From: Pseudarthrobacter sp. BIM B-2242
GTDB lineage: Bacteria; Actinomycetota; Actinomycetes; Actinomycetales; Micrococcaceae
Assembly (NCBI RefSeq): GCF_014764445.1
Contig: NZ_CP061721.1
Coordinates: forward strand, 1,302,001 to 1,366,000
Reading direction: 5' to 3'
DNA length: 64,000 bases
The stretch's first letter is position 1; the number at the start of each line of letters is the position of its first letter. The notes under the pieces were generated by a model that did not search any database, had not been told where the DNA came from, and worked only from the letters and a program-made list of their open reading frames with translations. The translations under genes were made by a program, and so were the position numbers. Positions 3,268 to 37,734 of this stretch are shown here, one piece after another.

Positions 3268-4356
3268 GTGACAAGTCTGCTGGGGAAGCTTGGTCTCAAG
3301 AAACGCCACAACAAACTGGTTACCGGTTCGGCTTTTGCCGCGGCTGGTGCTGTGTTGGTGGCCGGGGCGATCATCTATCCGGGGTTTAAGACCACTGAGG
3401 TGGAGTTGAACGACGGCGGTGTGTGGGTTGTCAGTAAGTCCAATAACGCGGTGGGGCGGTTAAATTATCCGTCGCGTGTTCTTGATGGTGCTGTGACGCC
3501 GGCGAGTACGACGTTCGATATTCTCCAGCATGCCGGGGATGTGTTTGTGGATGATGAGACGGGTTCGACGTTGAACCAGGTTTCTCCTGCGAACATGCGC
3601 CTGGGCGGGGACAAGCAGCTGCCGGGTTCTGCCGACGTCAGTTTTGGCACCGAAGTCATTTCCGTTACCGACGCCGCCAGGGGCAAGGTCTGGGCCCTCT
3701 CCCCGTCCACAGTAAACGGGTTCAATGAGGAATCCACGGAACCGGTGCTAGCCGCATCGCAGGGAACCGTCTCCGCGGTGGGGGCTGACGACCGGATTTA
3801 CAGTGCCGATCCCAAAACCGGAGCAGTGACCGTCACCTCGGTCAGCGCGGACGGCCAGGCCACGTCCGACTCGAGCACCTGGGGTGAGTTGAAGGGTGCG
3901 GGGGATCTGCAGATCACGGTGGTGGGGGATGAGCCGGTGGTGTTGGATGCTGCGGCGGGGAACCTGTTCCTGCCGGGCGGGAAGCGTTTGCAGTTGGCTG
4001 AGGCGCGGGATGCGAAGTTGCAGCAGAACGGGCCGGCCGGTGATTTTGTGGCTATTGCGACGCAGAAGGCGTTGTTGAAGCAGCCGTTGGATGGTTCGAC
4101 GGCGAAGACGGTGTCGTTTGACGGCGAGGGGGTGCCGGCTGCGCCGGTGCAGTTGGGCGGGTGTGTGCATGCGGCGTGGTCGGGGGCGAATAAGTATGTC
4201 CGTGATTGTGTGAATGATGCTGATGATAAGAATGTGGACGTGCCGAAGGCGAGTGCGTCGCCGTCGTATGTTTTCCGGGTGAACCGGGACCTGGTGGTCC
4301 TGAACGATGTGAACTCGGGGAATGTGTGGCTGGAGGGTGTTTCATTGAGTGTGTAA
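3268..4356 (+). pseudogene. Ig-like/FN3 giant surface protein, copy 1, 5' fragment (cut by IS256-type element)
   Basis: GTG start with CAGGGGA upstream. The fragment encodes the anchor of the giant protein: a basic N-terminus, one membrane segment (about residues 18-40), then propeller-like beta repeats with GGVWVVSKSNNAVGRL near residue 48. Genuine coding sequence ends at 4332 (codon 355, ..NVWL). The IS then adds seven foreign residues and a stop at 4354-4356. The gene resumes in the same frame at 5743, so removing the IS and one 8-bp duplicate restores a 2045-residue protein. The fragment is nearly identical to the start of the intact copy at 10979. The truncated product could still be made and inserted in the membrane, but would carry no Ig or FN3 repeats. 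Confidence 0.9.
4325..4332. repeat. 8-bp target-site duplication, left copy
   Basis: TGTGGCTG flanks the left end of the IS256-type element and recurs at 5735-5742 on its right. The uninterrupted paralogue has a single copy at 12039-12046 in the same context (AATGTGTGGCTGGTGAAC), which proves the insertion point. Eight base pairs is a usual duplication length for IS256 transposition. Confidence 0.95.
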
Positions 4357-5734
4357 GGGTCCGGTCTCTAACTAGGGTGTGACCTGCGGTTTCGCCCCTG
4401 AAAGGACGGGCCCTCTTGGCCGAAATCAGTATGACCACCAACCCCCTTGAAGGCGTTTTGAGCGCCGATCAGATCGATGCCCTCGTCACGGCTGCGGAGG
4501 ACCTCGGGGAGGGCCGCAACGGAGTTGAGGAACTGCTCTCCCGGATGACCCGTGCGGTCCTGGAACGGGCCCTGGAAACCGAGATGAGCGACCACCTCGG
4601 CTACGAGTCCGGGGACCCCGCAGGGCAGGGCACGGGCAACTCCCGCAACGGCAAGACCACCAAGAGCGTTCAGACCCTCCAGGGGCCGGTGCAGGTCACC
4701 GTGCCGCGGGACCGGAACAGTTCCTTCGAGCCGGTGATCGTGCCCAAGCGGGCCCGCCGGCTGGGCAAGGTCGAGGACATGATCCTGTCCCTCTACGCCC
4801 GCGGGATGAGCACCCGGGACATCGGCTCCCATCTCGATGAGATCTACGGGACCAAGGTCTCCGCGGCGACGATTTCGAGGGTGACCGACGTGATCGCCGA
4901 TGAGGTCGCCCAGTGGCAGAACCGGCCGCTGGAATCGGTCTACCCGATCGTCTACATCGACGCGATCTGGCTGAAAATCCGGGACGGCGGCGTGGTGGTG
5001 AACAAGGCCTGCCACGTGGCCGTGGGCGTGGACGTGGAGGGCCGCAAGCAGGTCCTGGGCCTGTGGCTGGGCACCAGCGAAGGGGCGAAGTTCTGGGCCA
5101 ACGTGCTCACCGAAATCCGCAACCGCGGAGCGACCGACATCCTGATCCTGTGCTGCGACGGGCTCACCGGGCTGCCGGCAGCGGTGAACAGCATCTACCC
5201 CCAGACCGTCGTGCAAACCTGCGTGGTGCACCTGCTGCGCTCGGCCATGAAATACGCCTCCTACGGCGCACGCAAAGCCATGGCCCGGGACATGCGCCCG
5301 ATCTACACCGCACCGACCGTGCAGGCGGCCGAGCTGGCCATGGAGGCCTTCGCGGAGACCTGGCAGAGCACAGCTCCCGGGGCGGTATTGGCGTGGCGGA
5401 ACGCGTGGGAGGACTTCACGCCGTTCCTGGCGTTCACCCCGGAGATCCGCAAAGTCATCTACACCACCAACCAGATTGAATCGATCAACTACCAACTGCG
5501 AAAAATCACCAAAACCAGGGGCTCATTTCCCTCCGACGAGGCCGCAATCAAGCTGGTCTACCTGGGGATCCGGAACATCGAGACCACCCGCGGCGGCGAG
5601 CTCGGAACCGGCACCCAAGGCTGGCACCAGGCCCTGAACGCTTTCGCCGTTCAATTCCCCAACCGACTTCCGATCTGACCACCCGGCAGACCGGATAACC
5701 GACCGGTCCCTTACACAGAAAACTTGACACCCCC
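4333..5734 (+). mobile_element. IS256-family insertion sequence, complete (1402 bp)
   Basis: The element carries one transposase gene and ends in imperfect terminal inverted repeats of about 34 bp. The left end begins GAGGGTGTTTCATTGAGTGT and the right end, read inward, begins GGGGGTGTCAAGTTTTCTGT; both continue into TGTAAGGG and CCGGTC. An 8-bp target duplication (TGTGGCTG) flanks it exactly. The ends, the transposase frame and the duplication are all intact, so the insertion looks recent and the element may be mobile. It interrupts copy 1 of the Ig/FN3 giant gene after codon 355. Confidence 0.95.
4416..5678 (+). CDS. IS256-family (Mutator-like) DDE transposase
   Basis: The 420 aa transposase cuts and moves the surrounding IS. 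The DDE residues are visible: Asp in YIDAIWLK, Asp in LILCCDGLTGLP, and Glu in TTNQIESIN, the family's signature helix near the end. The N-terminal part has the usual GNSRNGKTTKSVQT region, and CVVHLLRSAMKY is the conserved C/D(2)H-type segment between the second Asp and the Glu. Length is normal and no frameshift is seen. TTG 4416 follows AAAGGA with good spacing; ATG 4431 in frame is the alternative. It reads in the same direction as the disrupted gene. Confidence 0.95.
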   Translation: MAEISMTTNPLEGVLSADQIDALVTAAEDLGEGRNGVEELLSRMTRAVLERALETEMSDHLGYESGDPAGQGTGNSRNGKTTKSVQTLQGPVQVTVPRDRNSSFEPVIVPKRARRLGKVEDMILSLYARGMSTRDIGSHLDEIYGTKVSAATISRVTDVIADEVAQWQNRPLESVYPIVYIDAIWLKIRDGGVVVNKACHVAVGVDVEGRKQVLGLWLGTSEGAKFWANVLTEIRNRGATDILILCCDGLTGLPAAVNSIYPQTVVQTCVVHLLRSAMKYASYGARKAMARDMRPIYTAPTVQAAELAMEAFAETWQSTAPGAVLAWRNAWEDFTPFLAFTPEIRKVIYTTNQIESINYQLRKITKTRGSFPSDEAAIKLVYLGIRNIETTRGGELGTGTQGWHQALNAFAVQFPNRLPI

Positions 5735-5742
5735 TGTGGCTG
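5735..5742. repeat. 8-bp target-site duplication, right copy
   Basis: Second copy of TGTGGCTG directly after the right terminal repeat of the IS. The disrupted gene resumes at 5743 in the original frame (VNQNMQLVNNW, identical to the intact paralogue). Confidence 0.95.
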
Positions 5743-8700
5743 GTGAACCAGAACATGCAGCTGGTGAACAACTGGGAGGACGTCATTCCGCCGAAGGAAA
5801 CCTCCGATGACGCGGACAAGGATTCCGCCGACGAAGTCCAGCAGACCGTCCTGCCGGACCGCACCAAACCCAACAGTGCACCTGTGGCAAACCCGGATGC
5901 CTTCGGTGTCCGGGCAGGCAAGACGACCGTGCTCCCTGTCCTCGACAACGACACCGATCCCGACGGCGACATCCTGACAGTCCGGGCGGCCGCAGACCTG
6001 AAATCCGGCGCACTGTCGCCGATCTACGGTTCAACGGGTTTCCAGATCGCCGTGCCCGCCGACAAGTCCGGCAGCGAAACGTTCAAATACACCGTGGATG
6101 ACGGCCGCGGGCTGTCTTCCACCGCGGACGTGGCCCTGACCATCTTGCCGCCGGGCGAGAACACTGCGCCCCGTCAGAAGCCGAACCGCAACACCACGCT
6201 CGTCCTGCAGGCCGGAAAGAGCGCCACCCAAAACATCCTCACCGACTGGATCGACCCCGACGGCGACGATCTCTTCGCCGTTGCCGCCACAAGCACGGAT
6301 CCGCTGGACCAAGTCAGGATCCGGCCCGATGGCCAGCTGACCTTCCAGGACTCAGGCTCTGCCCCGGGACGTAAGGTCCTCTCGGTGACAGTATCCGACG
6401 GGCAGGCGACCTCCGAAGGCAAAATCACTGTGGACGTCCGCTCCCCGGGCGCCCTTCCGCCCATCGCCAACGCCGACCACGTGATCGCCGTCGCGGGAGC
6501 GGACACGGTGGTCACCCCACTGAAGAACGACTCCGACCCGCAAGGGGGCGTGCTGAGGCTGGCGCAAGCGACGGCAGACGCGCAGTCGTCGGCAACGCTG
6601 AATCCCGACCAACAGACATTTACGTTCAATTCCAACTCGGTGGGCGCGCATTACGTCTCGTACCTGGTGACCAACGGGCCCGCCAGCGCGCAGCAGCTGG
6701 TTCGGGTTGACGTTGTGGCAGGCGATTCCGAGGGCGCTCCGGTGGCGGTCCGTGACATCGCACTGCTGCCCACTGGCGGCGACGTCCTGGTGGATGTGCT
6801 GGGTAACGATGCCGACCCGTCGGGCGGGGTTTTGGTGGTGCAGTCTGTGACCGCGGACGCAGACCTTCCGGTCAGCGTGGCGGTTCTGGACCACTCGGTG
6901 GTCAGGATTACGGATGTCCGGGCCGAGGGCAAGCTGACTATCAAGTACACGATCTCCAATGGGCGCGCCTCCGCGACCGGCGAGATTTCGGTCCTGGTGG
7001 TCCCGGCACCCACCAAGCTCCAAGCGCCCCAGGCCAAACCGGACGAAGCCACTGTCCGGACCAACGATGTTGTCAGCATCCCCGTGCTGGCCAACGACAC
7101 GGACCCGAACGGCCGAAAGCTCACCCTCCTGCCCGAACTGGCGCAGCAGCCGGACGCCGCCGACGGCCGAATGTTTGTCTCCGGCGATTATCTGCGGTTC
7201 ATTGCGGGCGCTGAGCCCAAAACCGTCTACGCCATCTACAAAGTTCAGAACGAGTCCGGCCAGGTGGACTCCCAGCAGGTCACCATCCGCATCCAGGCCC
7301 GCGACGATGAACGAAACTCCCGTCCGGAGCCGAGGAACCTTACTGCCCGCGTAGTGGCGGGAATGATGGTGAAGATTCCCGTTCCGATGGACGGCATCGA
7401 CGCCAACGGCGATTCAGTCCAGCTCCTGGGCATCGACAAAGCACCCGGCATGGGCACTGCTGTGGTCAGGGACGGCTATCTGGAGTTCACTGCCGCAGGC
7501 GACGGAGCCGGAACAGATTCTTTCACCTACCGGGTCCGGGACCGGATTGGCGCCGAAAACACAGGCACAGTGATCGTGGGCATCGCCCCGCCCGAACCCA
7601 ACAACCAAAAGCCGATCGCCGTGGACGACGCCGTGGACATCAGGCCGGGCAGAAAAGTGGCCGTTGAGGCCCTCTCCAATGATTCAGACCCTGACGGTGA
7701 TCCGTTGAGCCTGGTGACGAACGGTTTCGAGGCAAAACCTGAACTGCAGGTGGAGGTATCCGATGGCGCCAAGGTTCTTTTCACCGCGCCCGATGCCGCC
7801 GGCAACGAGAGCATCAGCTACCGGATCCAGGACGACAAAAAGGCGTCAGCCGGCGCTGTCATCCGGATCCGGGTCAGCCCTGACGCCGAGCTGAAGCGTC
7901 CCGTCGCCAAGGACGACCGCGTCACGGTATCGGAGACCCTTGGAAAAACGGCTGTTGACGTTCCGGTCCTGAAAAATGACTCGGACGCCGACGGTGTGGC
8001 GGCAGATCTCAAGATCAGCCTCCCGGACGGCAACCCAAATGCCCGTGATGGCGGCTCCGGGAACGTGGTGGTCACCCTGACTCCCCAGGACCAGCTGATT
8101 CCTTATAGCGTCACCGACATCGACGGACTCTCCTCAACGGCCCTCATGTGGATCCCGGGCCAGGGGGAGCAATACCCGACGCTCGCCAAGATCGAACCGG
8201 TCGAAGTGATGGCCGGCAAGGAGGTCATCCTTGACCTTGCCGAATACGTCCGGGTGCGCGATGGCCGGCGGCCGCGGGTTACCGTGGCGGATGCGGTCCG
8301 TGTTCAGGGTGCATCGTCCGAGGACGTCATCCAGTCCGACGGTTCGGCGCTGCGGTACGCTGCGCGGGCGGACTATGTCGGTCCCGGATCGGTGACCTTC
8401 GAAGTCACCGACGGTGCCGGACCCGACGATCCTGCCGGCCTGAAGTCAACCCTGGTAATCATGACCTCTGTGATTCCGGACCCCAACGCCAATCATCCGC
8501 CCACCTTCAGCGGCACGTCCGTGGACGTTCCGAAGGCTGAGAAGGCCTCCGTCGACCTGTCCGGGCTCGCCCGGGACGTGGACGAACAGGACAAAGGCAA
8601 GCTCACATTTGCGCTGGACGGGACCCTGCCTGCAGGCTTCACCGCCACGATCGAGGGTGCTGTGCTGACCGTAGGGGCGGACAGCTCACTGGGCATCGGG

Positions 8701-10815
8701 TTCACCGGGAACATCCCGGTGAAAGTCACTGACGGCCGCTCTCCGGCAGTCACGGCGTCCATGCTGGCCCGGCACGTTGCCTCCAACCGGCCCATGCCGG
8801 TGGCCAACGACGACGTGGTGGACAAAGCCAATGCGGGCAAACCGGAGACCATCAACGTCCTGGCCAATGACTTCAACCCCTTCCCGGACACGTCTCTCAA
8901 AATCGTGGCGGCCACTGTTGAAACCGGGTCAGCTTCCGGCCAGCCCGCCGCAGTGGGGGACTCCATAGCCGTGACCCCGGCAGTCGGCTTCAAGGGCGTT
9001 ATGGTGGTCCGCTACACCGTGGCCGACAAAACCGGCGACCTGTCACGCCAGGTTGACGGCAGGCTCCGGCTGACCGTGCGGGATGCCCCCGATGCCCCGT
9101 CCGCCCCCAGTGCCACAGAGGTCCGCAGCCGGACCGCTGTGCTCAAATGGGCGCCGCCGTCGGACAATGGAGCCTCCATCACCGGCTACACGGTCCGCTC
9201 CAACAACGGCTTCGAGCAAGAGTGCGCCACCACTACCTGCACCTTGAACGGACTGACCAACGACGTGAAGTACGTCTTTACGGTTACCGCCACCAACGAG
9301 GTGGGGGATTCCCCTGCCTCCGCACAGTCCAACGAGATCCGGCCCGACGAAAAGCCGTCGCCGCCGGAAGCGCCGAGCGTCAAGGCCGGTGACAAAAACA
9401 TGGTGATCAACTGGCCTGCCGCCAAATCCGAGGGCTCGGCCGTCAAGCACTACAACCTGGAGATCTCGCCGCCACCGGCGACCGGCATCGCCGTGAAAAA
9501 CGACGTGGCAGGGCTGAACTACACCTGGACCGGGCTGACCAACGGCGTGAAATATAAGGTCCGGGCCCAGGCTGTCAACGAATTGGGTCCCTCCGACTGG
9601 GGAACGTACTCAGCAGAAGACAACCCCGCCGGTGTTCCGGCCGCGCCCGCCGCACCCAGCTCCGCAGTGACAGAATCCGTGGGCACACAGAACCAGCTCA
9701 AAGTGAGCTGGGCCGAACCCAACACCAACGGTGATCCCATCAGCAACTACTACGTCACCATGAGTGGCGGCGACGGTCCAGCCCAGACGCAGACCGTTGC
9801 CGGGACGGTACGGACGGCCAACTTCTCGGCCAACAACTCCGAGGCCGCTTACGCGTTCACCGTGCAGGCAGAAAACAAGGCAGGCAAAGGCGGGGTCAGC
9901 CCCGCCTCAGCACCACGCCGTGCCACTGGCAAACTGGGCCAGGTCTCGGGCGTCAGCTCCACTCCAGCCAACACCGGGGGCGCAGGAAGGTCGGTGACCG
10001 TTGACTTCCGGCGGCTCACTGCGGCCGAGCGCAACGGTTCCGCCGAAAACGAGGTCAGCTACAGCTACAACGCCAGCAACGGCACCAGCGGACCCATTGC
10101 TCCGGGACAGACCATTGCGGGGTTCGCCAACGGCGCCTCCGTCAGCATCACGGTGATCGCCAACTCGGCAGTAGCGCCAAGCTCGAACGCCAGCGCCCCT
10201 GCCTCCGCCACCCCGTACGGGTCACCTGGAACGCCTTCAGCGTCTGGCCAGGACGGTGCCATGAACCAGAAGTCCGTCACGCTGAACTGGTCATCGCCGT
10301 CTCCAAGTTCCTTCGACGTCGCCCGGACAAAGATCAATGTCGGCGGCCGCGGATGGGAAGACGTGGCTGCATCGGGCAGCAGGACCGTCAACACCAATGG
10401 CTACGAAGAGACCGTCACCATCCAAGTCCAGACCTTCAATTCCGTCGGGACCGGCGGCCCTGTCGCGGGTGCCAGCGCGAAATCCGGGCGAATCGGCCAG
10501 TGGACCACAACCCTGGTTCAGGACACCGGACTAGTCCGGACCTGCAGCTACACCCTGGGCGGGTCAAACTACCGGCCCAACCCCTACTTCGACTGCGACC
10601 GCGTCACGGGCGACAACCCGCCGTGGTTCTACGTCAGTACGCAGGACACCATCGTTGTGAAGTGTTACGTGGTGCAAAACGACAACTGGTCCGGCGGACC
10701 CGACCAGCCGTATTACCGTGTGGAGTCCGGTTCCTCCCGAAACGTGGGACGTTATGTAATTTCGGGGCACACCAAGCTTGGATGGCCTGGCGGGCCGGGG
10801 GTTCCGCATTGCTGA
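5743..10815 (+). pseudogene. Ig-like/FN3 giant surface protein, copy 1, 3' fragment
   Basis: This is the remaining 1690 codons of copy 1 after the IS. It opens with VNQNMQLVNNWEDV, homologous to residues about 357 onward of the intact copy. It holds roughly ten Ig/cadherin-like repeats marked by motifs such as DNDTDPDGDILTV, KNDSDPQGGVL and SNDSDPDGDPLSL, then fibronectin type III domains (from about SAPSATEVRSRTAVLKW onward, with TNDVKYVFTVTATNEVGDS) and a Cys-containing C-terminal module. The frame is open throughout with no decay, which fits a recent disruption. GTG 5743 could act as a start, but the product would lack the membrane anchor and there is no ribosome site in front, so I treat it as a dead remnant. 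Confidence 0.88.
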
Positions 10816-10841
10816 AGCCTATTCTGGGCAGCACCAAACGT

Positions 10842-10872
10842 GCCGCGGTGGGGGAGCGCTCCCCATCGCGGC
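10842..10872 (+). terminator. GC-rich hairpin after Ig/FN3 copy 1
   Basis: A 12-bp stem (10842-10853 with 10861-10872, one G.T pair) and a 7-base loop lie between the two giant genes. There is no T-run after it, so it may be a weak terminator or a processing/attenuation hairpin that separates the two units. Confidence 0.45.
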
Positions 10873-10978
10873 CGCCATCCTGCTTCGGTAGGCTAGCGCG
10901 GGAACAGAGAGCCCTATACCGGGTCTTTGGACGGGCTGGCCTGGGGGCCGCCACAAATTTCAGGGGAAAAGAAACACT

Positions 10979-12046
10979 GTGACAACTCTGCTGGGGAAGC
11001 TTGGTCTCAAGAAACGCCACAACAAACTGGTTACCGGTTCGGCTTTTGCCGCGGCTGGTGCTGTGTTGGTGGCCGGGGCGATCATCTATCCGGGGTTCAA
11101 GACCACTGAGGTGGAGTTGAACGACGGCGGTGTGTGGGTTGTTAGTAAGTCCAATAACGCTGTGGGGCGGTTGAACTATCCGTCGCGTGTTCTTGATGGT
11201 GCGGTGACGCCGGCCAGTACGACGTTCGACATTCTTCAGAGTGCCGGGGATGTGTTTGTGGATGATGAGACGGGTTCGACGCTGAACCAGGTTTCTCCTG
11301 CGAACATGCGCCTGGGCGGGGACAAGCAGCTGCCGGGTTCTGCCGACGTCAGTTTTGGCGCCGGGGTGATTTCGGTGACCGATCCGGCGGCCGGGAAGGT
11401 CTGGGCCCTCTCGCCGTCGACTGTCAATGGGTTTGACCAGGAATCCTCTGAGCCGGTGATGGTGGGCTCTGAGGGCCTCGTGTCAGCGGTGGGTGCCGAC
11501 GACAGGGTGTACTCGGCCGACCCGAAATCCGGTGTGGTCACGGTGACCACTGTGGATGCCAACGGCGAGGTGGTCAGCTCCGATTCGAGTACCTGGGGTG
11601 AGTTGAAGGGTGCGGGGGATCTGCAGATCACGGTGGTGGGGGATGAGCCGGTGGTGTTGGATGCTGCGGCGGGGAACCTGTTCCTGCCGGGCGGGAAGCG
11701 TTTGCAGTTGGCTGAGGCGCGGGATGCGAAGTTGCAGCAGAACGGGCCGGCCGGTGATTTTGTGGCTATTTCGACGCAGAAGGCGTTGTTGAAGCAGCCG
11801 TTGGATGGTTCGACGGCGAAGACGGTGTCGTTTGGCGGTGAGGGTGTCCCGGCTGCGCCGGTGCAGTTGGGCGGGTGTGTGCATGCGGCGTGGTCGGGGG
11901 CGAATAAGTATGTCCGTGATTGTGTGAATGATGCTGATTATAAGAATGTGGACGTGCCGAAGGCGAGTGCGTCGCCGTCGTATGTTTTCCGGGTGAACCG
12001 GGACCTGGTGGTCCTGAACGATGTGAACTCGGGGAATGTGTGGCTG
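10979..12046 (+). repeat. 5' duplicated segment shared with 3268-4332
   Basis: The first 1.07 kb of both giant genes are near-identical in two blocks (about 10979-11353 and 11585-12046 here; 3268-3640 and 3871-4332 in copy 1). A middle block of about 230 bp is clearly diverged, as is everything downstream. Codon use in the shared blocks favours GTG, TTG and GAT, unlike the C-ending codons downstream. Confidence 0.85.
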
Positions 12047-17086: not shown

Positions 17087-17130
17087 GCCGGCCCCATGAC
17101 ATCCAGCACCATTAGAAAAGGAACATTTTC

Positions 17131-18102: not shown

Positions 18103-18155
18103 CGCTCCCCGGAGCCCCAGACCAACCATCCTCCAGCGCGAACAAAGGTACCTCT

Positions 18156-24521: not shown

Positions 24522-24522
24522 G

Positions 24523-26328: not shown

Positions 26329-28121
26329 GTTCCAAACGGCCGGTTGCGCCGCCGCCCCCTATCCCGGGGTTTACGTACATCAGCCTGCTCGGCTCCGGCG
26401 GGTTCTCCGACGTCTACCTTTATGAACAGGACCGCCCGCGGCGCAAGGTGGCCGTCAAGGTCCTCCTGTCCGACCTGAAGACCGAAGGCGCCCGGCGCAG
26501 GTTCGAGTCCGAGGCCAACCTGATGGCCCAGCTCTCGTCGCACCCGTACATCGTGACCATCTTCGAGGCTGAAGTCACCGAGGCCGGGCACTCCTACCTG
26601 GCCATGGAGTACTGCTCCCGGCCGAGCCTCGACGTCCGCTACCGCCGTCAGCGTTTCAGCGTGGACGAGGTCCTGGCCGTCGGCATCCAGGTGGCGTCAG
26701 CCGTCGAGACCGCCCACCGCGCCGGCATCGCCCACCGGGACATCAAGCCCGCCAACATCCTGGTGACCGATTACAACCGGCCTGCCCTGACGGACTTCGG
26801 AATCTCGGGAACCCTTGGCGGGGACACCGACGAAGACGCCGGAATGTCCATCCCGTGGTCGCCGCCGGAACAGTTCACTGACGGCCCCGTCGACGGCGTG
26901 ATGGTGGATGTCTGGGCGCTCGGCGCCACGCTGTACACCCTGCTCGCCGGCCGGTCGCCGTTCGTTATGCCCGGCACCGACAACTCACAGCGCGAACTGA
27001 TTTCCCGCATCACCAGCGCGCCGCTGCCGCGCCTGGGCCGCGCCGACGTGCCGGAATCACTGGAACGTGCACTCTCCACGGCCATGGCCAAACCGGCTGC
27101 GTCCAGGTACTCATCCGCCCATGCCTTCGCCCTGGCCCTGCAGCGGATCCAGGCGGAACTGAATTTGTCGGTCACGCCCTTCGAAGTGCTCGAAGAGCCC
27201 AACCACGATGACAGCCACCCCGATGACGGCTTCGAGGAGACCCGGGTCCGGAGCATTGCCGCCATCGATCCGGAACGGACCGGCAGCGCCCCCACTTTCC
27301 CGGCACGCACCCGGCCGCAGGGCCCCGGTGCCGGTTCGCCGCCGTCGGACTCTCCCGCTGGTGGATTTGCCGCAACAGGTGCACCCGCGGCGGCGCCCCG
27401 CCCGCAGGTTCCGGGCAGTCTGTTTGCCGGTCAGCCGGAAGGAAATCAGGCTGCAGGCAACCCCGCAGGGGAATGGGCCCACGCCACCATGCTCCGCGGG
27501 AGCGCGCCTGCCGACGCCGACTACGGCTCCGCGCCGGACTCCACTGTTCAGCGGCCGGGACTTCTCCCGGCACAGGCAGGGCAGCAGGCAGCACACCAGG
27601 CCGGACGGCTGCCGGGCCGGCCGGAACCCGAAATCGACGCAACGGTCAGCCGTCCGGCCACTGTCCCGGACGCGGCACCGGAAACCGCCCCTGACCACGG
27701 CAAACGCAACCTCTGGCTCGCCCTGGCCGGCGGGACGGCGCTGGTCCTGGCCATCATTGTGGGGATAGTGCTGGCATCTACGGCATCGGAGCCAAAAGTG
27801 ATCGAGACCGACCAGGTCAGTAAGCCCCCGGCAGATGCCCTGGACAACGGGATCGTTCCCGACGTCGAGGACCTGGCCGGAACGGCTGACGGCGGCCGGG
27901 CCACCTTCACCTGGACCAACCCGCAGCCTAAGACCGGGGACGCGTACAAGTGGCGGGTGTACGCCCTGGGCAGCCAGGGCGAGTACCAGTCCGCTGCCGA
28001 GCCAACCGCCCAGGTGGCGTTGAACCCGGGAGAACCCACCTGTATCCAGGTGATGATCGTCAGGAGCGACGGCACGTCCTCGCCGCTGGAGGATGAATCG
28101 ATCGCCTGCGTCGGCCAGTAA
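26325..28121 (+). CDS. Membrane Ser/Thr protein kinase (PknB/Pkb2-like) with extracellular domain
   Basis: A 598 aa Hanks-type kinase. The kinase domain covers about 15-280: GSGGFSDV glycine loop, catalytic Lys45 in VAVKVLL, HRDIKPANI with Asp139, DFGIS at 157-161 and SPPEQF for the APE segment, all intact. A Pro/Ala-rich juxtamembrane stretch follows, then one membrane helix (about 463-485) and a roughly 110-residue outer domain with an FN3-like look (GGRATFTWTNPQPKTGDAYKWRVYA). No PASTA repeats are present, so peptidoglycan sensing of the PknB kind is not indicated. TTG start overlaps the FHA gene stop (TTGA). It is the likely source of the phosphothreonines read by the FHA proteins. Confidence 0.93.
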   Translation: MSSKRPVAPPPPIPGFTYISLLGSGGFSDVYLYEQDRPRRKVAVKVLLSDLKTEGARRRFESEANLMAQLSSHPYIVTIFEAEVTEAGHSYLAMEYCSRPSLDVRYRRQRFSVDEVLAVGIQVASAVETAHRAGIAHRDIKPANILVTDYNRPALTDFGISGTLGGDTDEDAGMSIPWSPPEQFTDGPVDGVMVDVWALGATLYTLLAGRSPFVMPGTDNSQRELISRITSAPLPRLGRADVPESLERALSTAMAKPAASRYSSAHAFALALQRIQAELNLSVTPFEVLEEPNHDDSHPDDGFEETRVRSIAAIDPERTGSAPTFPARTRPQGPGAGSPPSDSPAGGFAATGAPAAAPRPQVPGSLFAGQPEGNQAAGNPAGEWAHATMLRGSAPADADYGSAPDSTVQRPGLLPAQAGQQAAHQAGRLPGRPEPEIDATVSRPATVPDAAPETAPDHGKRNLWLALAGGTALVLAIIVGIVLASTASEPKVIETDQVSKPPADALDNGIVPDVEDLAGTADGGRATFTWTNPQPKTGDAYKWRVYALGSQGEYQSAAEPTAQVALNPGEPTCIQVMIVRSDGTSSPLEDESIACVGQ

Positions 28122-28181
28122 CGGCACGGCACACCGAAACGACAGTGAACGCGGGCGACGCCCGTCGAGGAGGCACGGAAA

Positions 28182-28886
28182 ATGGGGGATCTAGCAATAG
28201 ATTTCTGTGGTGAATGGTACGAACCGTCCGATGAGGAGATCTTCAACATCGGCCGCGAAGGCGATCTCGAGGTTGACGACAACCCGTACCTGCACCGTCA
28301 GTTCCTGCAGGTGGCCCGCTACGACGGCATCTGGTGGCTCAGCAACGTGGGCAGGATGCTCTCGGCCACCGTTGCCGACGGCTCCGGCGGCATGCAGGCC
28401 TGGCTCTCACCCGGGGCCCGCATTCCGCTCGTGTTCAGCCACACCAACATCATCTTCACCGCCGGGCCCACCACCTACGAATTCGCCGTGCACCTCAAAA
28501 CGCCGTCCTTCCGCCAGCAGTCACGCGAGGACGACAGCAACGGCGACACCACCATCGGCCCCGTCGTTTTCACCGACTCACAGAAGGCGCTCATCGTGGC
28601 CCTCGCCGAGCCCATGCTGCGGCGCGAGGGGACCGGCTTCAGCGCCATCCCGTCGTCGGCCGCCGCCGCCAAGACCCTGGGCTGGGCCCTGACCCGTTTC
28701 AACCGGAAGCTGGACAACGTCTGCGACAAACTCGACCGCGTCGGCGTGGTGGGGCTGCGCGGCGGCGGCGGAAAACTGGCCACCAACCGCCGTGCCCGGC
28801 TCGTCGAACACGCCGTAACCACCCACCTGGTTACCGCCGAGGATTTGTACCTTTTGGAAAAGATGAGGGGCGTGGACGAAGGATGA
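28182..28886 (+). CDS. FHA-like / winged-helix-like conserved protein coupled to the FtsK-type ATPase
   Basis: I do not recognise a named family with certainty. The 234 aa protein begins with an FHA-like fold (FNIGREGDLEVDDNPYLHR, where GR and N..LHR sit like the GR and SxxH loops). The C-terminal part, from about 130 (VVFTDSQKALIVALAEPML) to 215, looks like a winged helix, ending in EDLYLLEKMRG. A strong ribosome site (GAGGAGG) precedes ATG 28182 after a 60-bp gap. Its stop overlaps the ATPase start (ATGA), so the pair are translated together. Possible jobs: phospho-dependent regulator of the export ATPase, or a DNA-binding regulator of the cluster. Both are inference. Confidence 0.7.
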   Translation: MGDLAIDFCGEWYEPSDEEIFNIGREGDLEVDDNPYLHRQFLQVARYDGIWWLSNVGRMLSATVADGSGGMQAWLSPGARIPLVFSHTNIIFTAGPTTYEFAVHLKTPSFRQQSREDDSNGDTTIGPVVFTDSQKALIVALAEPMLRREGTGFSAIPSSAAAAKTLGWALTRFNRKLDNVCDKLDRVGVVGLRGGGGKLATNRRARLVEHAVTTHLVTAEDLYLLEKMRGVDEG

Positions 28887-31800
28887 GGATCCGGCTGACA
28901 CTCCGCCGGGATCCGGCGGAAACCAAGGACCTGGCCGTAACGGTTGACGGCCTTGCCACCGTGGCGGACATCGCCACCCAGCTGTGGGTGGCCGATCCTG
29001 ACAGGAAGGGCTCGCCGGCTCCGGAGAACCTTTCCTTGCGCATCGATGAGGCATTTGTGGGCGGCGGAATCCGCGGCAATGTCCTGACCCGCACGGACAA
29101 CCTGCTGGAGTCCGGGCTGCGTCCGGGGTCCGTGGTTTCGCTGGCCGAGGTCAGCGAACACTTCAATGCCCCCGGCGCCAACCGCGGTCCCGCTGCCGCC
29201 ACCCTGCGCATTCTGTCAGGGCCCGACGTCGGACAGGAATTTTCGCTGCCCTCCGGCACCAGCTACATCGGCCGGGACCGGGACGTGGACATCCGGCTGT
29301 CGGACCCCCTGACCTCCAAACGCCACGCCCGCATCACGGTGGGCGAGAGTGTGGAGATCGTCGACACCAACTCGGCCAACGGCCTCCTGATGGACGGCCT
29401 GCCCGTCACCCGGGCCACCCTGAACTCCTCGGACACCGTTACCCTGGGGGAGACCACCGTGACGGTGGTGCCGCTGGGACATAACCATGCGGCAGCACCG
29501 ACGTCGCCCCTTGTCGATTTCAACCGCTCCCCGCGGGTTGTTCCCCGCTTTGATGCGCCCAAGCGCGTGCCCCCTGCCGGGCCCAAGCGGCCGGACCACC
29601 AGGCATTCCCGTACATCATGCTGATGGCGCCGCTCCTGATGGGCGCCATCATGTTCGCGGTCACCCGGAACATGCTCTCCGTCATCTTTATGATGATGAT
29701 GCCGCTGTTCATCGTGGGCCACTATGTGGACCACAAAATGCAGTCCCGGCGCCAGCAGAAGGAACAGCTTAAACGGTTGCGGGAGTCCATGGCCGCCTTC
29801 CGGGAGGACATCACCGAACTCCAGCATGTGGAACGTGCAGTCCGCCTGCAGGAAGCGCCGTCCGTCAGCGACACCGTGGATTCCATCTATAAGCTCGGCC
29901 CGCTGCTGTGGACCCACCGCCCCGAGCACCTCGGCTTCCTGGGCCTGCGGTTCGGGCTCGGCACCAGTCCGTCCCGCATCATGTTCGAGGAACCCAACAA
30001 CAACGAGACCGAAGCTGAATACATGCGCGAGATCCAGGACTGCCTCAAGCAGTTCCGGGACATCGAGGGTGTGCCTGTGGTTTCGCAGCTGCGGACGTCG
30101 GGCGCTTTCGGTGTGGCCGGAGCACGTGGCCTCGTGGATGACGTTGCCCGCGGCATGGTGCTGCAGTTCGTCGGGCTCCACTCGCCGGCGGAAGCGGTGG
30201 TCACAGCCATCACCTCGGCGCAGTCCAGGCAACGCTGGGAGTGGCTGCAGTGGCTGCCCCACGTCGGCTCGGGCCACAGCCCCCTCGCGGGCGACCACCT
30301 CGCCGCGGGTTCTGCCAGTGGCTCCACCCTCCTGGCCCGGCTTGAAGACCTGCTCGATGCCCGGGAGGCTGCGGCCAAGCGTGCCGCGCCGCAGCACAGG
30401 GGCTCCATCGACCCGGCCAAGCACGAGGTGCCCGCTCCGGTGCTGCCGGCCGTCCTGGTCATTGTGGAGGACGACGCCCCGGTGGACCGCGGCAGGCTGA
30501 CCCGGCTCGCCGAACGCGGGCCGGACTCCGGGGTCCATGTCATGTGGGTTGCCACCGATATCCAGGCCCTCCCGGCCGCCTGCCGCGACTTCATGGTGGT
30601 GGACGGCGAAAACGGCACCACCACGGGTCAGGTCCGTTTGGGCCGGCACACCTATCCCGTCAGCTGCGAAAGCCTCGACGCCGACCTGGCCGCCCAGCTG
30701 GCCAGGATGCTCACCCCGGTGGTGGACGTGGGCAAGCCGGTCACGGATGATTCGGACCTGCCGCGCGCGGTTTCCTACGCCACCCTGATTGGCAAGGACT
30801 TCCTGGACAATCCGAAGGCCGTCGCGGAGCGCTGGGAAGAGAACAATTCCGTCCATGCCTCCGCAGTGCCGAACCGCAAGGACAACGGAACCCTCCGGGC
30901 GCTGGTGGGTTCGAAGGGCATCGAGCCTCTGTACCTTGACCTGAAGAACGAGGGTCCGCACGCGCTGGTGGGCGGTACCACCGGCGCCGGCAAATCCGAG
31001 TTCCTGCAGTCCTGGGTCATGGGAATGGCCGCGGCCTACAGCCCGGACAGGGTCAGCTTCCTGTTTGTGGACTACAAGGGCGGCGCCGCGTTCGCTGACT
31101 GCCTCAACCTTCCCCACACCGTTGGCCTGGTCACCGACCTTTCCCAGCACCTGGTCCGCCGCGCGCTGACGTCCCTCCGGGCGGAACTGCACTACCGGGA
31201 GCACCTGCTGAACCGGAAGAAGGCCAAGGACCTCCTGGCACTCCAGCGCGAAGCCGACCCCGAAGCCCCGCCGTACCTGATCATCATTGTTGACGAGTTC
31301 GCTGCGCTGGCCACCGAAGTGCCCGAATTCGTGGACGGGGTGGTGGACGTCGCCGCCCGCGGCCGGTCCCTTGGCCTGCACCTGATCCTGGCCACCCAGC
31401 GTCCGGCAGGCGTCATCAAGGACAGCCTGCGCGCCAACACCAACCTCCGGGTGGCGCTCCGCATGGCCGATGAAGACGACGCCACCGACATCCTGGGCGT
31501 CCCGGACGCCGCGTATTTCGATCCGTCCATTCCGGGCCGCGGTGCGGCCAAGACCGGCCCTGGCCGCATCCAGGGTTTCCAGACCGGCTACGCCGGCGGC
31601 TGGACCACGGAAAAGCCCCAGCGCCCGCAGATCGACATCGTGGAAATGGCGTTCGGATCCGGGCCAAGCTGGGAAGCACCCGCTCCCGAAAAGCCGGTCA
31701 GGGAAGCACCTGCCGGTCCCAACGACATTGCCAGAATGACCACCAACATCGTCCGGGCAGCCGAATCACTGGCCATCAGTCCGCCGCGGAAGCCCTGGCT

Positions 31801-33328
31801 GGACGAGCTCGCCACTACGTACGACTTCTCCAAGCTGCCCAACCCGCGGACCGACGAGCGGCTGCTGCTGGGCGTCGCGGACGATCCCACCCGCCAGGAA
31901 CAGCCCACCGTGTTCTATGAACCGGACAAAGACGGCAACATGGCTATCTTCGGCACCGGCGGCTCCGGCAAGTCCGCGGCCCTGCGCGGGATCGCGATTG
32001 CTGCCGCTGTCACGCCGCGCGGGGGTCCGGTGCACATCTACGGGATTGACTGCGGATCCTCCGGGCTGAAGATGCTCGACGAGCTTCCGCACGTCGGCGA
32101 GATCATCGACGGCGACGACGTGGAACGTGTTGGCCGGCTCCTGCGCCTGCTCCGCGACATTGCCGACGAACGGTCCGCCCGCTTCGCCGACGTCCGGGCC
32201 TCCACCATCGTTGAGTACCGCACCCTGGCGAACCGTCCCGATGAGAAGCGCATCTTTGTCCTGCTCGACGGCATGTCTGCCTTCCGCGAGACGTATGAAT
32301 ACAGCCGCTTGTCCGTGCTCTGGGATATCTTCCTGCAGCTGGCCACGGACGGCCGGCCCCTGGGCATCCACCTGGTCATCACCGGCGACCGGCCCAACTC
32401 GGTGCCGGCCTCCCTGCTTGCCTCCATCCAGCGGCGCCTGGTGCTGCGGCTTTCCTCCGAAGACGACTACATGTCCATGGACGTCCCCAAGGATGTCCTC
32501 AGTGCTACTTCACCGCCCGGACGCGGCCTGCTGGACGGCCTTGAAGTACAACTGGCCGTCCTGGGCGGGAACTCCAACCTGGCCCTGCAGGCCCGTGAGG
32601 TGCACAAGCTGAGCCAGGCCATGCTGCGGCAGGGACTGGACCAGGCGCCCAAGATCCAGCGGCTCCCGGAACAGGTGGACCTGGACCTGCTGCCCGCCGG
32701 CGGCCCGGACCTCCCGGTCATCGGCGTGGACGACGAAACCCTGCAGCCTGCCGAGATCATGGCCCAGGGCCCGCTCCTGCTGGCAGGGCCTCCGGGTGCC
32801 GGGCGCACCGTGGCGCTGGTCAGCCTCGCCTACGCGCTGCGCCGTTCCAATCCGGACACGGAGCTCATCTACATCGGCTCGCGCCGGTCCGCGGTGGCGT
32901 CCCTGCCGCTCTGGAACCGCTCGGTAGTAGGCGCGGACGACCTCTCCGAGGTGGTGGAAGACCTGGTGGAGCACTCCAGCGGCAACCCGGGCAAGGTGGC
33001 CATCTTCATCGAGGGCCTGACCGAGTTCACGGATACCGTGGCGGAATCCGGCGTGTCACAGCTTGTCACCGCCTCCATCAAGGCTGACCAGTGGGTTGTT
33101 GGCGAGTCCGAAACATCCACGTGGTCCTCCGCCTGGTCACTCTCCCAGCCCTTCAAATCGGGCCGCCGCGGGCTCCTGATGAACCCGGGGGACATCGAAG
33201 GAGACAGCCTGCTCAGCACGCCGCTGGGCCGGGTCAGCCCGGAGTTCATCCCGGGCCGCGGGTACATTGTGGGACGCGGCAAGGCCCGCAAACTGCAGAT
33301 CGCTTTGCCGCCGGAAAACAGGGACTGA
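28883..33328 (+). CDS. FHA-fused FtsK/SpoIIIE ATPase, EssC/EccC-like type VII secretion motor
   Basis: A 1481 aa protein built like EssC. Residues 1-90 look ubiquitin-like (YukD-type: RLTLRRDPAETKDLAVTV). An FHA domain lies at about 110-205 (YIGRDRD, SKRHARI, NSANG). Two membrane helices follow at about 235-285 (FPYIMLMAPLLMGAIMF, MLSVIFMMMMPLFIVG). Three RecA/FtsK domains have P-loops GGTTGAGKSEF near 697, GTGGSGKSAAL near 1024 and GPPGAGRTVAL near 1299. The third has Arg for the P-loop Lys, so it is probably inactive. Walker B LIIIVDEFAAL belongs to domain 1. The start is ATG 28883, overlapping the previous stop. It would energise export of WXG100-type proteins at the membrane; a WXG100 gene lies 0.9 kb on. 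No EccB/D/E or mycosin homologue is in the window. Confidence 0.9.
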   Translation: MRIRLTLRRDPAETKDLAVTVDGLATVADIATQLWVADPDRKGSPAPENLSLRIDEAFVGGGIRGNVLTRTDNLLESGLRPGSVVSLAEVSEHFNAPGANRGPAAATLRILSGPDVGQEFSLPSGTSYIGRDRDVDIRLSDPLTSKRHARITVGESVEIVDTNSANGLLMDGLPVTRATLNSSDTVTLGETTVTVVPLGHNHAAAPTSPLVDFNRSPRVVPRFDAPKRVPPAGPKRPDHQAFPYIMLMAPLLMGAIMFAVTRNMLSVIFMMMMPLFIVGHYVDHKMQSRRQQKEQLKRLRESMAAFREDITELQHVERAVRLQEAPSVSDTVDSIYKLGPLLWTHRPEHLGFLGLRFGLGTSPSRIMFEEPNNNETEAEYMREIQDCLKQFRDIEGVPVVSQLRTSGAFGVAGARGLVDDVARGMVLQFVGLHSPAEAVVTAITSAQSRQRWEWLQWLPHVGSGHSPLAGDHLAAGSASGSTLLARLEDLLDAREAAAKRAAPQHRGSIDPAKHEVPAPVLPAVLVIVEDDAPVDRGRLTRLAERGPDSGVHVMWVATDIQALPAACRDFMVVDGENGTTTGQVRLGRHTYPVSCESLDADLAAQLARMLTPVVDVGKPVTDDSDLPRAVSYATLIGKDFLDNPKAVAERWEENNSVHASAVPNRKDNGTLRALVGSKGIEPLYLDLKNEGPHALVGGTTGAGKSEFLQSWVMGMAAAYSPDRVSFLFVDYKGGAAFADCLNLPHTVGLVTDLSQHLVRRALTSLRAELHYREHLLNRKKAKDLLALQREADPEAPPYLIIIVDEFAALATEVPEFVDGVVDVAARGRSLGLHLILATQRPAGVIKDSLRANTNLRVALRMADEDDATDILGVPDAAYFDPSIPGRGAAKTGPGRIQGFQTGYAGGWTTEKPQRPQIDIVEMAFGSGPSWEAPAPEKPVREAPAGPNDIARMTTNIVRAAESLAISPPRKPWLDELATTYDFSKLPNPRTDERLLLGVADDPTRQEQPTVFYEPDKDGNMAIFGTGGSGKSAALRGIAIAAAVTPRGGPVHIYGIDCGSSGLKMLDELPHVGEIIDGDDVERVGRLLRLLRDIADERSARFADVRASTIVEYRTLANRPDEKRIFVLLDGMSAFRETYEYSRLSVLWDIFLQLATDGRPLGIHLVITGDRPNSVPASLLASIQRRLVLRLSSEDDYMSMDVPKDVLSATSPPGRGLLDGLEVQLAVLGGNSNLALQAREVHKLSQAMLRQGLDQAPKIQRLPEQVDLDLLPAGGPDLPVIGVDDETLQPAEIMAQGPLLLAGPPGAGRTVALVSLAYALRRSNPDTELIYIGSRRSAVASLPLWNRSVVGADDLSEVVEDLVEHSSGNPGKVAIFIEGLTEFTDTVAESGVSQLVTASIKADQWVVGESETSTWSSAWSLSQPFKSGRRGLLMNPGDIEGDSLLSTPLGRVSPEFIPGRGYIVGRGKARKLQIALPPENRD

Positions 33329-33341
33329 CGCCGGGTGGTTG

Positions 33342-33379
33342 CTGCGGGCCCGCAAATCCAGTGATTTGCGGGCCCGCAG
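33342..33379 (+). terminator. Strong hairpin ending the kinase/ATPase operon
   Basis: A perfect 17-bp stem (33342-33358 with 33363-33379, core CTGCGGGCCCGC) and a CAGT loop begin 13 bp after the ATPase stop. It closes the long series and sets the next two small genes apart. No T-run is present, which is common in high-GC actinobacteria. Confidence 0.85.
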
Positions 33380-33451
33380 TGCGTTGTAGGAGACTACGGG
33401 AAACACTCGTTCGCCGCGGAAGGGTGCCGCGCGCCTTTCCCAAAGGTAACC

Positions 33452-34045
33452 ATGATCCGATCCTCTTCCGTGCTCCGCGACGCCTCCGCCGCGGCGGTCC
33501 TCGCTTTCCTGGCGCTCACCGTGGGACTGTCGGCGGCCGTTCCCGCCAGTGCGGACGACGGCGATCCTGGACCGTCCTGCGGAATCGGAATCGTCTGCGA
33601 GCTCCTGCCCGGGGACCAGAAGCCACCGCCGGACACACCCGGCACGGGGAAGCCCACCGAGCCGTCGTCGGAAACTCCCGCCCCGCCACCTGCCGTGCCG
33701 GCGCCCGCTCCGACGGTTCCTGCCGTTCCGGTAGCACCTGCCCCCGCTCCCGTCGTCACCACGGACCCTGCGGTTGCTGCCGATGAGGAGACGCCGACGC
33801 CGGAGGCCACCGCCAGCCCGGTGTCACCTACGGCGACTTCCGCGGGCCCGTCCGCTGAATCCAACTGGGACAAACCCGTCACGAAGTCGGCAAGGCCAAC
33901 CCAAGCCGCCGCCGTGTCCCGGAACGATGGCTCCGGGCTGTTCGGCGGTCCGAAGCTGCTGGCCATCATGGGGGGCGTGCTGCTGGTGGGTACAGCCGGC
34001 CTGGCGTTTGCCTGGTTGGGCAGGAACCGCTTCTCCTCCCACTGA
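33452..34045 (+). CDS. Secreted/anchored Pro-rich protein with C-terminal membrane helix
   Basis: The 197 aa product has an N-terminal signal peptide (residues about 1-35, hydrophobic core AVLAFLALTVGL, cleavage likely after PASA), a short motif with two Cys (CGIGIVC) near the new N-terminus, about 90 residues of Pro/Ala/Thr-rich linker, and a C-terminal membrane helix (LLAIMGGVLLVGTAGLAFAW) with a short RNRFSSH tail. It would span the wall with its tail in the membrane. It lies between the export ATPase and the WXG100 gene on the same strand but has its own leader after a terminator. It has no family name I recognise; it may be an accessory subunit or wall spacer of the secretion module. Function unknown. 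Confidence 0.75.
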   Translation: MIRSSSVLRDASAAAVLAFLALTVGLSAAVPASADDGDPGPSCGIGIVCELLPGDQKPPPDTPGTGKPTEPSSETPAPPPAVPAPAPTVPAVPVAPAPAPVVTTDPAVAADEETPTPEATASPVSPTATSAGPSAESNWDKPVTKSARPTQAAAVSRNDGSGLFGGPKLLAIMGGVLLVGTAGLAFAWLGRNRFSSH

Positions 34046-34210
34046 GTGCCTGGGGGTGCCCGCTTATGGGGAGTGGTGCATGGGCAGCGGTGCCCATCGA
34101 CAGTGTTTTGGGGCCGGGATAGGTTCTAGGTAATGGATCTTCCGGATGAGCCGGGGGCCGCTGGGGATGCCGATCCGGATCGGATCCAACGAACACATGA
34201 GGAGAAACTG

Positions 34211-34474
34211 ATGGCTATTTGGGGCGCAGATGTAGAGCAGCTCAGGACTCTTGGCACGAAGCTGCAGGCCGGTGCTTCGGAGATCGAGCAGCAGCGGACC
34301 AACCTGTCCCGCCTGCTGGACAGCACCACCTGGGAAGGCCCGGACGCGAAGCACTTCCGCAGCGAATGGTCCGGCACGCACACCAGTGCACTGAACCAGG
34401 TCATCCAGGCGCTGAAGGATGCCGGCACCAAGGCAACCAAGAACGCCAACGAGCAGGACCAGGCTTCACGCTAA
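34211..34474 (+). CDS. WXG100-family (ESAT-6-like) secreted protein
   Basis: An 87 aa helical hairpin protein of the type VII secretion client family. The turn motif W-x-G is present as TTWEGPDA at about residue 44, between helix 1 (DVEQLRTLGTKLQAGASEIEQ) and helix 2 (AKHFRSEWSGTHTSALNQVI). It has no signal peptide, as expected. GAGGAGA just before ATG 34211 fixes the start; an upstream in-frame ATG at 34133 would add an unusual Asp/Pro-rich tail. It lies 0.9 kb downstream of the EssC-like ATPase and is followed by its own terminator. It is a single WXG100 gene rather than an EsxA/EsxB pair, so it may form a homodimer. It could be a client or a structural part of the machine. Confidence 0.9.
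   Translation: MAIWGADVEQLRTLGTKLQAGASEIEQQRTNLSRLLDSTTWEGPDAKHFRSEWSGTHTSALNQVIQALKDAGTKATKNANEQDQASR

Positions 34475-37734
<3,260 letters not shown>

Follow-up and report, generated by a model that had tools for sequence, protein, structure and literature searches.

Does a gene cluster of the bifidobacterial PFNA type form one system with the type VII secretion genes beside it, or do the two merely share a locus? The question is raised by a gene run of Pseudarthrobacter sp. BIM B-2242, which was analysed within a stretch of 64,000 nucleotides (the window, G000:C1:1302001-1366000 of a 4.78-Mb genome). Here the genes for a giant immunoglobulin/fibronectin-repeat (Ig/FN3) protein, for MoxR, DUF58, TgpA-like, RDD-FHA, PP2C, FHA and Ser/Thr kinase proteins and for a partner protein labelled WH lead to an EssC-like ATPase, with a WXG100 gene downstream. 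These families, from the giant to the ATPase plus WXG100, had been named by a first-pass annotation, and all of these genes were confirmed to be present. The best explanation, held with a probability of about 0.7, is a type VII secretion system (T7SS) variant of Actinomycetota with a built-in phospho-switch, in which the PFNA module and a T7SS ATPase make up one set. The set is a conserved, co-inherited system, for which export and phospho-gating are the predicted functions.

Conservation and co-loss of the gene set

The weightiest evidence is the co-loss test within the genus. An ATPase orthologue was identified in 36 of 41 genomes (in pieces in G380), while G360, G362, G369, G372 and G382 carried other FtsK/T7SS-like ATPases scoring 355 bits at most. 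WXG100 homologues occurred in the same 36 genomes and in none of the five, and a joined query of the partner and the N-terminus of the giant matched the same 36 and none of the others. The chance agreement of two such 36-of-41 patterns is 1.3e-6, assuming independence. The best WXG copy lay less than 10 kb from the ATPase in 8 of the 36 genomes and at about 12 kb in one; in 14 it shared the contig of the ATPase at a distance of more than 1.5 Mb, and in 13 it was on another contig. Because it is mostly far from the ATPase, a single deletion of neighbouring genes does not explain the co-loss.

Across the order, an even draw of 159 genomes gave two-peaked ATPase scores, and with an author-set cut of at least 880 bits an orthologue was present in 44. 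Neighbours were counted if they lay no more than 25 kb from the ATPase and shared its strand; flank lengths were unequal and some contigs ended early (e.g., G332 and G333), so that the counts are lower bounds. RDD-FHA occurred at 35 of the 44 loci, followed by PP2C and WH (30 each), FHA (29), the kinase (27), MoxR, DUF58 and TgpA (25 each), and the giant and WXG (24 each). All nine families other than WXG stood near the ATPase at 19 loci, and at least one of them at 40. The gene order occurs in two permuted layouts, and the ATPase stays inside the unit in both: giant-MoxR-DUF58-TgpA-RDDFHA-PP2C-FHA-kinase-WH-ATPase-WXG in the window, G339, G203, G287 and others (layout A), and PP2C-FHA-kinase-WH-giant-MoxR-DUF58-TgpA-ATPase-WXG in G217, G259 and G202 (layout B).

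A scan of named genomes returned at least 577 relatives. Of the best 80, 79 had one or more PFNA-type genes in the fetched flank; TgpA was there in 74 and WXG in 51. The relatives listed came from at least 15 families of Actinomycetes, namely Micrococcaceae, Microbacteriaceae, Intrasporangiaceae, Dermatophilaceae, Dermabacteraceae, Promicromonosporaceae, Cellulomonadaceae, Jatrophihabitantaceae, Propionibacteriaceae, Nocardioidaceae, Pseudonocardiaceae, Micromonosporaceae, Geodermatophilaceae, Actinospicaceae and Bifidobacteriaceae, the last with one metagenome-assembled genome (L221) in which PFNA and ATPase are joined. In a short contig of Ilumatobacteraceae (Acidimicrobiia), FHA, PP2C, kinase, WH, ATPase and WXG genes were found, with no giant, MoxR or TgpA on the contig. 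In G097, of another class and taken from a draw across the phylum, the giant, MoxR, TgpA, PP2C and FHA genes adjoin the ATPase on the opposite strand. The proposal that the type VII module and the PFNA-type genes belong to a single conserved unit is supported by their co-occurrence, far beyond close relatives. Separately, an Arthrobacter-like copy of the cluster was seen in a record titled Sporosarcina beigongshangi (Bacilli; L240), which perhaps bears a wrong label or includes a contaminant contig.

ATPase, candidate cargo and proposed phospho-control

The ATPase has the features of an EccC/EssC-type membrane FtsK ATPase in the broad sense of type VII secretion, with two hydrophobic segments, two canonical P-loops and a third in which GR replaces GK. 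The EssC model TIGR03928 matched at 543 bits (E 1.5e-162), below its cut-off of 778, and the scores for EccCa and EccCb were likewise below the NCBIfam cut-offs. The start of this gene lies at 28883, which gives 1481 amino acids (aa), as in the nearest homologues, and not at the 28334 of the open reading frame (ORF) finder. The nearest named relatives of the ATPase are Pseudarthrobacter/Arthrobacter. In structural models the N-terminus seems to be a ubiquitin-like domain, and the "missing" EsaB-type part would then be fused on. To call the secretion module minimal is therefore misleading, as an EsaB/EccD-like ubiquitin fold appears to be fused to the ATPase. Two side observations were made. 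A YukD match of 26.3 bits, below the cut-off, inside a 1491-aa frame (G294:C5:45054-45251) may belong to a further ATPase to which a ubiquitin-like domain is fused. The own genome also has a distant second ATPase of the FHA/FtsK kind between polysaccharide-type genes (L175:10035-14474, G000:C1:2735034-2739473), and similar matches persist in genomes without the main system.

As in type VII secretion broadly defined, a protein with a WxG motif adjoins the ATPase and its family co-occurs with it; the WXG100 match of this protein reached 25 bits, below Pfam's 27.3. Many of the WXG matches listed for the genus fall in open frames 300-600 aa long that are scattered along the chromosomes. Three such frames of the own genome were checked (497, 559 and 313 aa), and the WXG domain is N-terminal in each. 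The 497-aa fusion has a calpain-family match of 27.1 bits (cut-off 23.8) and is followed by a small lipoprotein-like gene (L281:3887-5814). WXG100 and N-terminal-WXG fusion proteins are the likely cargo. The top WXG100 match of the own genome (G000:C1:756178, 64.8 bits) is a different gene, outside the WXG matches of the co-loss search. A YxxxD/E export signal was rejected as support, as it occurred near the C-terminus in 2 of 175 WXG-family ORFs.

Further observations concern the same family. The pair of WXG-calpain and lipoprotein-like genes resembles pairs of the effector/immunity type. Downstream of the ATPase, at about 14.9-18.5 kb in L206, L210, L213, L215 and L243, are proteins of 355-417 aa with a WXG domain, which have a Gly-rich hydrophobic C-terminal pattern in common. 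A 471-bp block with the WXG100 gene of the window (34051-34521) has a 99.6% copy at G000:C1:4304675-4305145, downstream of a copper-ATPase-like gene, and two near-equal WXG100 copies also occur in relatives such as G365, G363, G354, G364 and G370.

The phospho-switch is proposed on the basis of conserved FHA sites and motif enrichment. In orthologue surveys the phospho-recognition sites are intact: 39-43 of 44 ATPases retain the site residues G-R, S-x-x-H and N-G, as do 92-93 of 93 FHA proteins and all 80 RDD-FHA proteins. WH retains the G-R and loses the remainder. The 44 ATPases of the FHA-site survey and of set A1 came from 42 of the 44 order genomes (the incomplete G224 and G333 were excluded) plus G097 and G134; A1 used 41 of 42 listed references (L142 excluded), A5 used 31, and A7 had 10 rows, two of them identical. 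In the ATPase residue survey, 31 of the 46 clade members were themselves among the sequences that went into the profile or among its rows. The motif [DE]xTxxR was enriched over block shuffles in the orthologue sets of the kinase (61 vs 17.0) and of PP2C (44 vs 9.6). Outside the family of the window, +3 Arg was the top signal around Thr in the kinase linkers (129/78), and the PP2C tails favoured +2 Pro, +3 Arg (53/22), -3 Asp and -2 Glu; +3 Arg was weaker in FHA (59/41), RDD-FHA favoured +3 Lys and TgpA showed neither. In WH, a stricter form of the motif occurred 7 times against 2.6 expected, which was not used as evidence. Thr phosphorylation at [DE]xTxxR sites is a prediction from these patterns.

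The preferred explanation can be put as a sequence of steps. With anatomy and co-loss as observed, the ATPase would export WXG100 and longer N-terminal-WXG proteins. The N-terminally anchored giant would serve as an envelope scaffold or conduit, assembled or matured by MoxR, DUF58 and TgpA. The membrane kinase would phosphorylate Thr in the [DE]xTxxR sites of its own linker and of the PP2C tail, and perhaps also those in the tails of TgpA, RDD-FHA and FHA. The FHA sites that are intact, one each in the ATPase, in RDD-FHA and in the FHA protein, would dock on phosphothreonine and thereby unite the ATPase with the envelope part, and PP2C would reset the switch.

Gene inventory of the locus

The features are collected in the table. 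All cluster genes between 3268 and 34474 are on the + strand, and ligA comes next after the WXG100 gene. The region 3268-10815 had been counted as a member of a nine-gene run and is actually a further giant gene in tandem, interrupted by an IS256-type element that is flanked by an intact 9-bp target duplication (4325-4333 and 5735-5743); tandem giant pairs also occur in G278 and G234. The earlier gene list had also missed protein H between the ATPase and WXG100 genes, whose profile matches are confined to Arthrobacter/Pseudarthrobacter loci. The reported 4-bp overlaps at most joints hold by a bare majority, 5 of the 9 from giant to ATPase (DUF58/TgpA, TgpA/RDD-FHA, RDD-FHA/PP2C, FHA/kinase and WH/ATPase). 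The "winged-helix" label of the partner was not borne out by Pfam or NCBIfam, neither of which gave a match; at its N-terminus the partner resembles an FHA domain, but the site is degenerate. For the FHA gene the probable start is ATG 24523, and PP2C scored 208 bits against NCBIfam Stp1/IreP, below the cut-off of 230. A scan of 16900-34700 returned 0 promoter-like sites (shuffles 1.3) and 12 terminator-like sites (shuffles 8.8, standard deviation 3.0). A defence system was rejected, as the PADLOC matches were a generic kinase, PP2C, MoxR and FtsK/HerA with no coherent system, and in a pattern-based search the ATPase had no match in the viruses of IMG/VR.

Features of the PFNA-type and type VII secretion gene cluster, in window positions.
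Feature	Position	Strand	Evidence
Giant Ig/FN3 gene copy 1, N-terminal piece, entering the insertion element	3268..4356	+	91.3% DNA identity to copy 2, 1092 bp
IS256-type insertion element, transposase 4416-5678	4334..5734	+	Pfam Transposase_mut E 2.7e-116
Giant Ig/FN3 gene copy 1, C-terminal piece	5743..10815	+	Big_9, fn3 domains (Pfam)
Intact giant (copy 2), 2035 aa; N-terminal hydrophobic anchor, Big_9 repeats, three fn3; homologue of bifidobacterial PFNA FN3	10979..17086	+	
MoxR AAA+ ATPase	17131..18102	+	Pfam AAA_3 E 7.4e-63
DUF58 protein	18156..19487	+	Pfam E 1.2e-12
TgpA-like transglutaminase-fold membrane protein, ETTVLR in tail	19484..22093	+	Pfam, motif search
RDD membrane protein with C-terminal FHA domain (site intact), DRTQMR in linker	22090..23622	+	
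PP2C phosphatase, EDTLPR in tail	23619..24521	+	Pfam E 1.5e-13
FHA protein (site intact), EKTVVR in linker; start probable	24523..26328	+	
Ser/Thr kinase, one hydrophobic segment, small ectodomain; EETRVR, HATMLR, DSTVQR, DATVSR in linker	26325..28121	+	Pfam E 1.4e-39
Partner WH, degenerate FHA-like N-terminus, conserved C-terminal part	28182..28886	+	
EssC-like ATPase, 1481 aa; putative ubiquitin-like domain, FHA, two hydrophobic segments, FtsK-type domains	28883..33328	+	
Putative ubiquitin-like domain of ATPase	28883..29167	+	
FHA domain of ATPase	29189..29470	+	
Small protein H, signal peptide, Pro-rich, C-terminal hydrophobic segment	33452..34045	+	
WXG100 protein	34133..34474	+	

Known systems, alternative explanations and meaning

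The PFNA operon, as described in the accessible parts of PMC8430577 and PMC6803598, comprises genes for a kinase, an FN3 giant, MoxR, DUF58, transglutaminase-like, PP2C and FHA proteins, and is there called unique to bifidobacteria and assigned to immune-signal sensing. The window shares the homologous giant and the same kinds of kinase, MoxR, DUF58, transglutaminase-like, PP2C and FHA genes. Family group f56 corresponds to Bifidobacteriaceae, as the giant of G345 has homologues from Bifidobacterium saguini, B. scaligerum and others. The giants of five f56 genomes matched the giant profile at 920-1145 bits in the order kinase-giant-MoxR-DUF58-TgpA, and window-group profiles matched kinase, giant, DUF58 and TgpA at 5 of 5 loci, with a separate MoxR gene at four (not in G345). 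By these profile matches, the PFNA cluster is a wide actinobacterial module and not limited to bifidobacteria. The published order pkb2-fn3-aaa-atp-duf58-tgm is not matched in the window, where fn3-aaa-duf58-tgm is followed by the kinase five genes further on; in layout B (G217, G202) the kinase precedes fn3, with WH between. No literature joining PFNA and type VII secretion was found, nor any mention of WXG100 in the MoxR/FHA/FtsK literature, in searches that left most subscription journals outside.

T7SSa (ESX) and T7SSb (Ess/Yuk) resemble the window system in their EssC/EccC-type ATPase and WXG100, and differ in that EccB and EccD/YukD have no match in the genome here and that the ATPase stays below the EssC, EccCa and EccCb cut-offs. 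The earlier report of no EccB or EccD thus extends from the window to the genome; for EccE and mycosin it holds for Pfam on 25 ORFs between 3268 and 48052, none of which matched, and neither the rest of the window nor the genome was searched. EccB was present in 2 of 44 ATPase-positive and 23 of 115 other genomes (p 0.015), and YukD/EccD in 3 of 44 and 31 of 115, respectively (p 0.005). Filing under T7SSa was rejected for want of EccB and EccD matches in the own genome. The T7SSb components EsaA, EssA and EssB had no Pfam match among the cluster proteins, and the genome was not searched for them.

According to the accessible text of PMC11217815, T7SSd (Olsenella/Bifidobacterium) likewise combines WXG100, an FHA/FtsK ATPase, a kinase, a small transmembrane protein and a giant Ig-repeat protein. 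Counterparts of the kinase TsdD and the WXG100 protein TsdA are present in kind, matched by description and not by orthology, and protein H is of the sort of TsdH, the small protein with one transmembrane segment, by description alone. In models, the ATPase of both systems begins with a ubiquitin-like domain; T7SSd was represented by a sequence from Bifidobacteriaceae. The window system adds MoxR, DUF58, TgpA, RDD-FHA, PP2C, the FHA protein and WH. The ATPases also differ in clade: in a tree of 38 sequences (quick search, no bootstrap), the Bifidobacterium/Alloscardovia clade, standing in for TsdC without O. uli, is separate from the window clade, with a Shimodaira-Hasegawa-like approximate likelihood ratio test (SH-aLRT) value of 100 for either. 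A C-terminal transmembrane segment is reported for TsdI in the same accessible text (PMC11217815) and is absent from all 46 giants here. The main text of that paper (Garrett et al. 2024, PMC11217815), as far as accessible, does not contain the words MoxR, DUF58, transglutaminase, fibronectin or PFNA. T7SSe of Bacillota shares an ATPase with an intact FHA domain, a kinase, a PPM phosphatase, a separate FHA protein and a giant, and differs by a separate ubiquitin-like protein, a second WXG100, no MoxR, DUF58 or TgpA named in the accessible text, and its phylum (PMC11217815).

Several observations weigh against a single T7SS variant with a phospho-switch. None of the nine families was present in the fetched stretch at 4 of the 44 ATPase loci, and WXG lay within 25 kb of the ATPase in just 24 of the genomes. 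In four genomes of group f65 and in G276 and G247 (f70), the ATPase stands beside RDD-FHA only and the PFNA module is elsewhere; somewhat more is retained beside it in G262 and G290 (f70). In the five f56 genomes, the PFNA module has no window-clade ATPase next to it. Partner counts were based on 56 strong matches of 61, with five at 24-33 bits dropped; 20 of these 56 genomes lack a window-type ATPase, and 8 of 44 genomes with this ATPase lack a strong partner match. The five losses in the genus may be one event. The Pfam YukD profile reports no match at the ATPase N-terminus. On the phospho-control side, the [DE]xTxxR-like sites were first spotted in the TgpA, RDD-FHA, PP2C, FHA and kinase proteins of the window itself. 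The motif is not enriched in FHA orthologues (18 vs 12.9 by block shuffles); in the stricter form [DEH]xT[ILVMQ]x[RK], FHA reached 12 vs 3.5 and RDD-FHA 9 vs 3.2, so that for FHA only the stricter form is enriched. Neither form was enriched in MoxR, DUF58, ATPase or giant orthologues, and RDD-FHA and TgpA were rejected as motif carriers, being weak (z 1.1-3.7). In folded controls, unrelated pairs reached equal or larger z, up to 16, and z values are not probabilities; the control values are high because orthologues are alike, and only recurrence across unaligned tails therefore counts.

That a surface/adhesion PFNA operon and a T7SS are independent neighbours sharing a locus is unlikely. It would account for the separation in f65 and some f70 genomes and for a PFNA module without this ATPase in the five f56 genomes, and for 8 of the 56 partner-carrying genomes with neither a window-type ATPase nor a YukD/EccD match, one of which (G231) has another FHA/FtsK ATPase 3 kb away. 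It does not account for the loss of WXG genes at distant sites together with the giant and the partner, nor for a linkage that persists despite permutation of the gene order. Moreover, an EccC/EccD locus adjoins the same module in G292, of another Micrococcaceae genus, in which the giant to WH and RDD-FHA are followed by EccC and EccD on the opposite strand (EccCa 737, EccCb 618 and EccD 106 bits, all above cut-off); EccB was not detected in G292. Among genomes without a window-type ATPase, YukD/EccD occurred in 12 of 20 with WH and in 19 of 95 without (Fisher p 6e-4, relatedness uncorrected). A binomial estimate for PFNA lying close to other T7SS loci in ATPase-negative genomes was set aside, as it depended on an assumed 3.3% and an incomplete list of matches. 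The EccC/EccD locus beside the PFNA module in a Micrococcaceae genus (L099:283-9652) includes a DUF6177 gene.

Quite unlikely, too, is the model of the first-pass annotation, in which the ATPase exports the giant or gates its surface display. The tight linkage and co-loss of giant and ATPase would fit it, but the giant has an N-terminal hydrophobic anchor after positive charges and no WXG domain, and its homologues occur in 40 of 115 sampled genomes without a window-type ATPase, Bifidobacterium included. An N-terminal anchor was found in 33 of 46 giants (author's cut-off), and a hydrophobic segment in the last 150 aa in none. The giant looks Sec-anchored and is more likely an envelope part than cargo; the WXG-fusion proteins are better substrate candidates. 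The overall first-pass interpretation is thus partly supported. Identity with the published T7SSd is most improbable, since the shared kinds of part (in the accessible text of PMC11217815, with one transmembrane segment in the small protein) are outweighed by the ATPase clades, by the C-terminal segment of TsdI and by G275, where a T7SSd-like locus (kinase, small gene, 1798-aa protein, ATPase) coexists with a PFNA locus at 13.6 kb from kinase to kinase and 22.8 kb from ATPase to giant.

For the T7SS variant with its phospho-switch, a broader reading is tentatively offered, short of an even chance. It would be an unnamed T7SS subtype, from Actinomycetes to Acidimicrobiia, with the EsaB/EccD ubiquitin-like part fused to the ATPase. 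In this machine for cargo delivery, the PFNA module would be the envelope and phospho-control half and could be exchanged from one T7SS ATPase to another; the FN3 "adhesin" of bifidobacteria would then belong to an envelope of the T7SS type and would not be an immune sensor standing by itself. The shared cluster joins the PFNA and T7SS-subtype literatures and gives the MoxR-DUF58-TgpA set a testable role. Fusion to the ATPase may also answer the puzzle of the missing ubiquitin-like protein of T7SSd, as posed in the accessible text of PMC11217815. A soil bacterium could serve as a model in which to study how phosphothreonine controls a T7SS, and the genomes that have naturally lost the system offer controls.

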